Origin: Bacillota bacterium
GTDB taxonomy: Bacteria; Bacillota; Clostridia; Lachnospirales; CAG-274
Reading direction: 5' to 3'
Assembly (NCBI GenBank): GCA_017543265.1
Contig: JAFYGI010000041.1
Span: 1 to 64,000 of the forward strand
Length of the DNA: 64,000 nucleotides
Part shown: piece by piece, positions 41,331-43,766 of the stretch
Numbering within the stretch: position 1 is the first letter of the stretch
Layout: each line of letters opens with the position of its first letter
The notes under the pieces: generated by a model
Told to the model about the DNA's origin: nothing
Databases searched by the model: none
The model's input: the letters and a program-made list of their open reading frames with translations, nothing else
Program-made: the position numbers and the translations under genes

Positions 41331-41405
41331 ACGTTTTATCTCATTTTTTCGCGATAAAAAGGGAAAATTATTGATTATATATTGTAAATATGTTATATTA
41401 TTTTT

Positions 41406-41492
41406 AAAGTCGGATTTAAAGGTGAGCCTGTTGAATTGTTTGATTCCATAGCAAGGATGCCTTCGGGCATTGAAACGGAGGATAAAAACTAA
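41406..41492 (+). pseudogene. C-terminal scrap of an unknown protein
   Basis: A frame without a start codon encodes FKVGFKGEPVELFDSIARMP and a few more residues to TAA at 41490. It ends 19 bases before the McrB-like start, the way adjacent genes of one operon would sit. Too short to name; I read it as the tail of an upstream gene of a deleted restriction operon. Confidence 0.35.
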
Positions 41493-41511
41493 AACGAAAG
41501 GGGTTTTTACA

Positions 41512-41622
41512 ATGACAGAATTCAAATGGACAAGTTTTTATACTGAGTTTGCAATTGAGCTTTTACAATATAAAAATGACAGAAAAACCTTGATAGATAA
41601 AATAATGATAGGAAAGATATAG
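41512..41622 (+). pseudogene. Truncated N-terminus of a McrB-like AAA restriction protein
   Basis: ATG 41512 follows GAAAGGGG and encodes 36 residues, MTEFKWTSFYTEFAIELLQY then KNDRKTLIDKI, ending at TAG. The pattern of a Trp-x-x-Phe-Tyr-x-Glu-Phe helix followed by LL-x-Y/F-K-x-x-R-x-x-LI is what I recall as the opening of McrB-type AAA ATPases in Clostridia. The rest is gone: AT-rich sequence and a MITE-like element follow. Identification rests on memory of the family start and is tentative. Confidence 0.45.
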
Positions 41623-41666
41623 ACTTAAAGTTATTTTTATGCTATCATAGATTTTAAGAAGAATCT

Positions 41667-41815
41667 ATTTATAGCAAACGACATTTTTAATGTCGTTTGC
41701 TATAAACCTACGGGGGATGCGCACGGCTGCGTATAAGGAAAATAGCCGCAAAGCGGCACGCAGCTGGCGCAAGTAAACGACAAAGATCCAAGTATTTTTG
41801 TCGTTTACTATAAAT
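41667..41815. mobile_element. 149-bp MITE-like element with 17-bp terminal inverted repeats
   Basis: ATTTATAGCAAACGACA (41667-41683) and the inverse of its partner at 41799-41815 match at 16 of 17 positions. Each end is also the arm of its own hairpin (16-bp perfect stem 41670-41685/41689-41704; 13-bp stem 41772-41784/41797-41809). A GCCGC-aaa-GCGGC hairpin and an ACGCAG pairing lie between. No transposase is inside, so it would be mobilised in trans, if at all. Confidence 0.7.
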
Positions 41816-41880
41816 ATTTGTTTTTTTGATGTTTGTACTTTTACTACAAATGCAAAGAAGATAATCTATAAACATTATTA

Positions 41881-41947
41881 TCGTGAATGTCAAAAATGAG
41901 CCTTTGAAAAACTTTCAAATGCACTCAAAATATTCAGACATTCACGA
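41881..41947 (+). promoter_or_regulatory. Inverted repeat leader upstream of the EVE-nuclease gene
   Basis: TCGTGAATGTC (41881-41891) and GACATTCACGA (41937-41947) are perfect 11-bp arms. They enclose a second hairpin TTTGAAA-aac-TTTCAAA (41903-41919). The structure ends 34 bases before the TTG start and could be an operator pair, an attenuating leader, or the edge of a small element. Confidence 0.5.
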
Positions 41948-41981
41948 TTGAGTTATACATTTAAATTTGGGGTGAAATAAA

Positions 41982-43502
41982 TTGGTTAATCAATATGTTT
42001 GGGAATTATACCTTAAATCAAACGGAAACGATATTGTCAAAACTTTTGAAATGAATTTATCAGATCCGGCAACTTTTTCGTTAAAGTATGCTGATCTTAT
42101 AAAAAAACTCCATAGTGTTTATTCCCCCATGAAATCAGAACTTGATGATGAATATAAACAGCTGAATAACCTATACAGTTATATTGCTAACCATAATGGC
42201 GCTGCTAAGTATAAAAAAATTTCAAATGGACATAGAGGATCAGTACGTGTGCCTAACAGAAATAAGAAAGAAACAAATAAGTACTGTTTGTTTGATGATG
42301 TGATTAGGGATTTGAAGCAAGTCAACGAAAACGAAAATGGTGTTTTTGAGTCATTTATATATGATATAGCATCATTAACAACCTATCTTGCAATTAGTGC
42401 GCCGGATTTATATATCCCGTATTATTTTAAATACAATTTTAATGTATTAAAAATAATTGCCGATACATTTAATATTGAATTGCCGGTTCTTCCACAAAAG
42501 TCAGATTACAACGCAAGATTAAAGTATTATGTTCAATTATGTGATGCGTTGCATTATTTTAGAACAGCGAACAATTTATCACCATTTGAACTATATGCGT
42601 TTTTATATGATTTTGCGCCCAACTATATTGGCGGTCTTTCAAGCTATATAATCACGGAACTTCCAAAGCCTAAAGGGGCGTATTTTATTGGCGGTGCAAA
42701 AGATGATATATTCTTATCAGATAATACAGACAAAATTACTATATGGCAATGCAATCTCGAAACTAAAGTCGGAGATATGATCGTAATGTATCTGCGTTCT
42801 CCAATAAGTGCCATTGATTCTGTATGGAGAAGTTGTTCAGTAGGTTTTATAGATCCTTTCTTTTACTATTACAGATGTACCTATATTTGTTCTCCTCAAA
42901 AATTGAAACAAGTCAAACTCGAGCAAATGCGTTTGGATAAAATTATAGGTACAATGCCTATCGTACGAAAAAATATGCAAGGTTTAAATGGTATCGAATT
43001 AAAACCTTCTGAATATAATCATTTGCTTGAATTAGGAAACAGCAATGCAATACGTTTGGAATATTCAGCAGTAAATTCCGAAAAAGAATACAGCACCGAA
43101 AAAGAAGTCGAAGACAATGTTGTTAAACCATTACTTGAGAAAATAGGATACGACAAAAGTGATTATAGCCAACAATTATATCTTGAAATTGGAAATCACA
43201 ATTATGCGCTGATACCGGATTTTGTTCTTTTTCCAAAAATCATAGGAAACCACAAAACTGCATTTGCAGTAGTAGAGGCTAAACGATCAATTACAACATT
43301 AAAATCTTTGAATGCCGCTAAATCACAAGTCCGTAGCTATGCAAAATTGCTTGGAACTAAATATGCCGCAGTTATTTCGCAGGAAAAGATATGGATCTAT
43401 TCATCAAACGACGATTATTACAAAGAAATATTCTCTTGTTGCATTTCGGAATTATCTAATGATTTACTTTATGAATTAAGGAAGATAATTGGAAAACCTT
43501 GA
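41982..43502 (+). CDS. Putative modification-dependent restriction protein: EVE-like domain plus PD-(D/E)XK nuclease
   Basis: 506 aa. Residues 1-220 are helical and unassigned. Residues about 225-355 look like an EVE/PUA-like reader of modified bases: TIWQCNLETKVGDMIVMYLR, then VGFIDPFFYYYRCTYI, ending in MQGLNGIELKPSEYNHLLEL. Residues about 370-500 match the HsdR-N type PD-(D/E)XK nuclease: EKEVEDNVVKPLLEKIGY, catalytic PDFVLFP and VVEAKRS, then SQVRSYAKLLGTKYAAVISQ. TTG 41982 is set by GGGGTGA six bases upstream. The gene is much richer in A/T than its neighbours and lies between restriction-gene scraps, so horizontal acquisition is likely. The nuclease part is fairly sure, the EVE call less so; no methylase is adjacent, which fits a type IV-like system. 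Confidence 0.6.
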   Translation: MVNQYVWELYLKSNGNDIVKTFEMNLSDPATFSLKYADLIKKLHSVYSPMKSELDDEYKQLNNLYSYIANHNGAAKYKKISNGHRGSVRVPNRNKKETNKYCLFDDVIRDLKQVNENENGVFESFIYDIASLTTYLAISAPDLYIPYYFKYNFNVLKIIADTFNIELPVLPQKSDYNARLKYYVQLCDALHYFRTANNLSPFELYAFLYDFAPNYIGGLSSYIITELPKPKGAYFIGGAKDDIFLSDNTDKITIWQCNLETKVGDMIVMYLRSPISAIDSVWRSCSVGFIDPFFYYYRCTYICSPQKLKQVKLEQMRLDKIIGTMPIVRKNMQGLNGIELKPSEYNHLLELGNSNAIRLEYSAVNSEKEYSTEKEVEDNVVKPLLEKIGYDKSDYSQQLYLEIGNHNYALIPDFVLFPKIIGNHKTAFAVVEAKRSITTLKSLNAAKSQVRSYAKLLGTKYAAVISQEKIWIYSSNDDYYKEIFSCCISELSNDLLYELRKIIGKP

Positions 43503-43531
43503 TTATCGAATATTTTAGGAGGACAGCCGGC

Positions 43532-43651
43532 ATTATTGTAAAAACACTTGACCTTGACAAAGATTTCAGCGAGATCAAAAACCAGCTTGACGCAATTGTC
43601 GATTTTCTTGTAAAGCAAGGTCATACGGAGGACGGTTTATGTATGATACAA
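43532..43651 (+). pseudogene. Small ORF remnant with a ribosome site but no start codon
   Basis: AGGAGG at 43517-43522 is followed at good spacing by ATT-ATT-GTA and an open frame: IIVKTLDLDKDFSEIKNQLD, then AIVDFLVKQGHTEDGLCMIQ and a stop. The ATT may replace a lost ATG. The frame is in fact open back to the end of the nuclease gene. Helical, no family recognised. The remaining 43652-43766 shows no gene. Confidence 0.35.
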
Positions 43652-43766
43652 TAACGGAAATGATATGACCTAAAACTTTTTGTGCAATATTTTGATATGC
43701 GGTGTAAAATAATGCCTTGTTTTGTTAAAAACACTTAAAAGAAATTCATAAATTTAACATTTGCTA

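Follow-up and report, generated by a model that had tools for sequence, protein, structure and literature searches.

Organization of the locus

The window, i.e. the whole stretch of 64,000 nucleotides analysed here, contains an AT-rich foreign insert (41331..43677) between nadC on the minus strand and a phosphofructokinase gene on the plus strand, and within this insert lies a gene for a protein of 506 aa (41982..43502, plus strand), referred to below as the EVE-nuclease gene after its predicted domains. Its G+C content is 32%, lower than in nadC (0.52) or in nadA and the phosphofructokinase gene (0.47 each), in agreement with the first-pass annotation, which had called its base composition strongly different. 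In two genomes of the same genus (L049 and L050) the gap between nadC and the phosphofructokinase gene measures about 460 bp and holds none of the genes of the insert, and blastn identity of 88-92% to these genomes ends at about 41330 and restarts at about 43678. The notion of a restriction island stands, but the extent originally given to it, 41406-43502, was too narrow. The edges of the insert carry no long direct repeat, the longest being 10 bp. The corresponding gap is filled by differing, unalignable DNA with GC-rich inverted repeats in L049 (1659-2122) and L050 (about 1569-2008), and since this filler differs between the two, the site itself is variable.

On its upstream side the EVE-nuclease gene is preceded by a 5' remnant of mcrB (41512..41622, plus strand), which comprises about the first 31 codons followed by a stop. 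The resulting scrap of 36 aa, running from an ATG at 41512 to a TAG at 41620-41622, is 61% identical over 28 aa to residues 15-42 of an 840-aa McrB (L068; E 9e-9) and also matches L069 and L071, which bears out the earlier description of a McrB-like N-terminus of 36 residues. The other gene tail noted in the first-pass annotation is indeed present and can now be identified as a 3' remnant of mcrC (43535..43654, plus strand), i.e. about the last 27 codons and a divergent tail. Over 27 aa it is 52% identical to the C-terminal end of McrC (344 aa) from the same L068 operon (E 2e-4), and it also matches L069, L070 and L071. The L068 operon is from the same bacterial family, and its McrB-McrC pair was found in three more genomes. 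Since the flanking scraps are thus the start of McrB and the end of McrC of one operon, the EVE-nuclease gene sits inside an McrBC operon whose middle part is gone. McrBC is a modification-dependent system.

The stretch that separates the mcrB scrap from the EVE-nuclease gene furthermore contains a 151-bp palindromic MITE-like element (41666..41816) with 18-bp terminal inverted repeats (TATTTATAGCAAACGACA / TGTCGTTTACTATAAATA; inverted repeats I2, I3 and I5) and an internal GC-rich hairpin, of which no second copy was found in the window.

The EVE-nuclease gene is an intact family member

The TTG start of the 506-aa reading frame, which was already called in the first-pass annotation, is upheld by the relatives, since their ATG aligns at the same residue (MFNxYxW). 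A genome scan returned eight full-length relatives, 42-65% identical, from MAGs of Clostridia/Bacillota and Desulfovibrio, and more full-length members were found in viral contigs, Deinococcus plasmids and other genomes, such that the family extends over Bacillota, Desulfovibrio, Deinococcus and prophages with members of 480-515 aa and alike boundaries. It corresponds to PHROG 37753, which the window protein matches with an E of 8.6e-71 and which 20 of 20 tested members match as well, and which is annotated as 'unknown function'. The dN/dS ratio between the window gene and its nearest relative is 0.08, and six other family pairs gave values of 0.03-0.19, while dS was saturated in two further pairs. 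The window gene is an intact family member under purifying selection.

Its neighbours mcrB and mcrC truly are remnants, and some family copies are broken by internal stops or frame breaks (L005, one of the eight relatives from the scan, which has an internal stop, and L056), so that one might propose the window gene, too, to be a leftover of a larger enzyme like HsdR, decayed and without function, as the restriction island around it is eroded. This is however highly improbable, since the protein is full length, begins and ends as its relatives do, has kept its catalytic residues and displays the low dN/dS mentioned above. A degraded HsdR fragment, named in the first-pass annotation as one outcome that would speak against it, was likewise rejected in view of the full-length homologues with identical boundaries.

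In a phylogenetic tree the window protein pairs with that of a Ruminococcus MAG with full support. Transfer of the family between phyla is suggested by this tree, since the Desulfovibrio members nest within a mostly Bacillota clade. The family is furthermore sparse, being found in 2 of 295 genomes of the order and 2 of 291 genomes of the class, with the genome of the window counted in both, and the gain of the gene by horizontal transfer is the best explanation. One Ruminococcus MAG carries two divergent family copies at separate sites (L052, 4579-6066, and L053, 5308-6780, both on the minus strand), both with a G+C content far below that of their surroundings.

Predicted structure and domain assignment

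The AlphaFold2 model was calculated from an alignment of 31 sequences, from which two plasmid-record rows were left out, and has a pLDDT of 88, a linker around residues 74-97 being of low confidence. An earlier AlphaFold model from 9 sequences gave a pLDDT of about 28-50 in the EVE part, which the 31 rows resolved. The model was compared with solved structures by VIA-align and Foldseek, and three parts can be distinguished.

The N-terminal module (residues 1-222; 41982..42647, plus strand) is all helical, with pLDDT mostly above 90 except at 74-97, and contains the invariant residues P146, F163, I165 and R179. It has no meaningful sequence match in the PDB, and no PDB fold match listed spans it, although this region was barely probed since the search was made with the whole protein. 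A search of viral contigs with residues 1-222 alone likewise returned just contigs already known as carriers of the family. The earlier expectation that the N-terminal half would be the part most likely to be new thereby receives support, there being no sequence match outside the family.

The central part (residues 231-361; 42672..43064, plus strand) adopts the EVE fold. It aligns with 1zce, 2gbs and 2eve at VIA-align Z scores of 13.5, 13.2 and 11.7, with THYN1 bound to 5mC DNA (5j3e) at 11.1, and with the EVE-HNH enzyme VcaM4I (6yex) at 10.6 (rmsd 3.0 over 121 residues). An absent EVE/PUA fold had been set beforehand as an outcome that would contradict the first-pass annotation, and what was found is a range of Z scores of 13.5-9 to EVE proteins, 2eve and VcaM4I among them. 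Several residues of the putative reader are invariant or nearly so, namely W255-Q256, G264-D265, Y270, D291-P292 and Q333-G334. Pfam does not detect EVE in the 506-aa protein, and the scores of relatives, 13.6-15.6 bits, stay below the cut-off of 23. Weak Pfam EVE matches over the aligned segment (E 0.016-0.066) are however given by the family member L015 and by two short proteins whose segment is matched by the family profile (E 0.066 for L054 and 0.016 for L055). The EVE assignment is hence one of predicted structure, resting on the fold match with weak sequence evidence agreeing. A profile comparison between the EVE part and EVE-like McrB gave a weak match (E 0.0043, probability 8%) and is left out of the argument.

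The C-terminal part (residues 367-506; 43080..43499, plus strand) is a PD-(D/E)XK nuclease of HsdR-N type, with Z scores of 11.3 to an HsdR N-terminal fragment (3h1t) and 10.1 to the type IIG enzyme BpuSI (3s1s). The sole Pfam match of the protein, HSDR_N/HSDR_N_2 at about 22 bits, falls here and is below the curated cut-off of 25. The motifs PDFVLFP (412-418) and VVEAK (430-434), from which such a nuclease had been proposed in the first place, are present, and P412-D413, E432-x-K434 and Q449xxxY453 are invariant or nearly so among 31-33 relatives. Neither phmmer/hmmsearch against PDB sequences nor a comparison with viral predicted structures gave anything further, the former yielding nothing meaningful and the latter no match with E <0.001.

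The fold matches also bear on what the reader may recognize. YTH structures match the EVE part with Z about 8, and YTH domains share the EVE fold and bind modified RNA, so that the protein could be a defence nuclease triggered by something other than modified DNA. Its EVE domain would then sense modified RNA or some other ligand, and its nuclease would go on to degrade DNA or RNA and so kill or stall the cell under infection (abortive infection). The helical N-terminal module would leave room for such regulation, and the host C5 methylase discussed below suggests that plain 5mC is not the trigger. We nevertheless consider this explanation unlikely, since the best matches are to DNA-type EVE proteins, including THYN1 in complex with 5mC DNA and VcaM4I, and since the nuclease belongs with those of HsdR and type IIG enzymes, which cut double-stranded DNA. 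A dependence on modified DNA is the reading favoured in the following.

Prophage and defence contexts

In 15 of 19 prophage-type viral contigs the gene follows a repressor-like gene on the same strand, either overlapping it or at a distance of no more than 39 nt, although the 19 include near-identical contigs and amount to about 13 distinct cases. Among the remaining prophage loci, one has the gene at 204 nt after the repressor and one has a repressor-like gene downstream. The upstream repressors are HTH proteins, most of them with an S24 peptidase domain (Pfam was run on five loci), and they vary widely between loci. Downstream, small secreted or lipoprotein genes are usually found, and several loci have a convergent tyrosine integrase. 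Judged by integrase type, the hosts of these viral contigs are probably Bacteroidota. No homologue was found in a collection of 50,697 phage records, and viral scans seeded with the Deinococcus and G992 members gave nothing. The literature search found no paper naming PHROG 37753, nor any on an EVE-PD-(D/E)XK prophage defence gene.

The slot behind the repressor is the usual seat of lysogenic-conversion genes. The tight coupling to the repressor gene might alternatively mean that the gene acts in lysogeny maintenance or phage competition without restriction, for instance as a repressor helper or in phage DNA processing on induction, and was later captured by chromosomes. Such a function is however in poor agreement with the persistence of the gene while the repressors differ widely, with the homologues that occur without repressors, alone on chromosomes from several phyla and within a BREX locus, and with the invariant nuclease motifs, and we regard it as quite unlikely.

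A restriction function is in better keeping with the surroundings of a homologue in Deinococcus sp. QL22 (L015, L084; plasmid NZ_CP097151), which lies inside a BREX locus with the order brxC, N-6 methylase, DarT-like gene, hypothetical gene, two GTPase genes, EVE-nuclease, pglZ and brxL. One of the two extra GTPases has weak LeoA/LeoBC similarity. The homologue of D. proteolyticus has the start of a type IIG restriction-methylase (1064 bits in PADLOC) 2.4 kb downstream. Many chromosomal members are however solitary with no further defence gene alongside, which, like the negative result in the collection of phage records, speaks against a role in restriction. The family is absent from PADLOC 2.0.0, in which the best match of the window protein is Cas4 with an E of 0.015 and other family members have single matches at best (mad2 at 1.6e-4, IIG at 6e-4). 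A link to mobile elements or to defence loci is seen in the repressor-adjacent slot, the BREX locus, the mcrBC scar and the foreign G+C in several host genomes, and the first two of these strengthen the anti-phage reading of the first-pass annotation.

As stated there, no methylase lies next to the gene, and indeed no methylase reading frame was found near 41982-43502 in the window or beside most of the solitary relatives. Reader and nuclease domains, both assigned by predicted fold, hence occur together without a cognate methylase, as in type IV enzymes. The genome of the window does hold methylases at other places. On contig C4 of this genome (G000; L085, 1282-3317) an intact C5-cytosine methylase with an N-terminal HTH is directly followed by an Eco47II-type endonuclease, and the pair is possibly a self-regulated type II restriction-modification system. 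To judge from these genes, host DNA probably carries 5mC at an Eco47II-type site. A general 5mC target is thus disfavoured for the EVE-nuclease, since an enzyme cutting 5mC in its own host would be self-harming.

Proposed function and mechanism

We conclude that the gene probably encodes a one-gene, modification-dependent (type IV-like) restriction endonuclease directed against phages and other incoming DNA. This builds on the predicted folds, the kept catalytic motifs, the purifying selection, the foreign composition, the insertion site and the repressor and BREX contexts, while modification dependence as such is inferred from the predicted EVE domain. Binding of a modified base by the EVE domain, probably in a flipped-out state, would license the C-terminal HsdR-N-type nuclease to cut. 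The helical module may serve in dimerisation, DNA contact or autoinhibition. As the host C5 methylase probably marks the Eco47II-type site, the enzyme would have to ignore host 5mC, either through its sequence context or because a different modification is read, e.g. hmC. The gene now fills the gutted interior of an McrBC operon, and since McrBC is itself modification-dependent, one type IV-like system may here have replaced another.

A more far-reaching proposal, which we put forward only tentatively, is that PHROG 37753 constitutes an immunity family expressed by lysogens, in which a new helical module controls an EVE-licensed nuclease, that prophages thereby exclude phages with modified DNA, and that the reader takes a base other than plain 5mC, as the host itself probably methylates C5. 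If this is true, an unannotated phage protein family would become a testable one-gene immunity system of Bacillota, Desulfovibrio, Deinococcus and prophages, and its seat behind the lysogeny repressor would explain the timing of its expression. The helical module, not met in other proteins here, may then reveal a new control of a reader-licensed nuclease, and the mcrBC scar would be a concrete example of one modification-dependent system in the seat of another.

Relation to known systems

EVE-PD-(D/E)XK proteins are already known as a class of predicted type IV restriction enzymes (Bell 2020, PMC7641849), which likewise combine reader and nuclease in one polypeptide and are predicted to be modification-dependent. 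This class is heterogeneous, and the PHROG 37753 family is set beside it by the general description given there, while the helical N-terminus of about 220 aa, the repressor-adjacent slot and the BREX embedding were not met in the parts of that paper dealing with the class. A type IV enzyme linked to BREX is also known, namely BrxU of the GmrSD family (PMC8565348), which as presented there is a single-gene enzyme encoded with BREX, and the QL22 homologue is similarly placed. BrxU however has another nuclease fold and reader, and Pfam finds no GmrSD domains in the EVE-nuclease family. What is new here is therefore the identity of the family, its helical N-terminal module, the repressor-adjacent slot, the BREX-embedded homologue and the replacement of mcrBC.

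McrBC with an EVE-type McrB shares modification-dependent restriction, which is predicted for the window protein, whose gene lies within the scar of such an operon, but it relies on a GTPase motor and a second subunit. The window protein has neither and combines its reader and its HsdR-N-like nuclease in a single chain. In VcaM4I the EVE domain flips 5mC/5hmC (PMC7897488), and the two proteins are alike in the EVE fold, in being encoded by a single gene and in the presumed reader-plus-cutter logic, a likeness at the level of fold and not residue by residue at the VcaM4I pocket (W82, Y130, Q128). VcaM4I differs in having an HNH nuclease, an N-terminal EVE domain and no large N-terminal helical module, whereas the window protein has a PD-(D/E)XK nuclease and a central EVE domain.

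Other domain orders may occur as well. The two short proteins mentioned above (L054, 1634-2422, minus strand; L055, 5498-6253, plus strand) are of 251-262 aa and have the EVE-like segment as their C-terminal half behind a different N-terminal half, which in L055 carries an FPDC motif, and they are possibly compact EVE-nuclease proteins in which the order of the domains is reversed.
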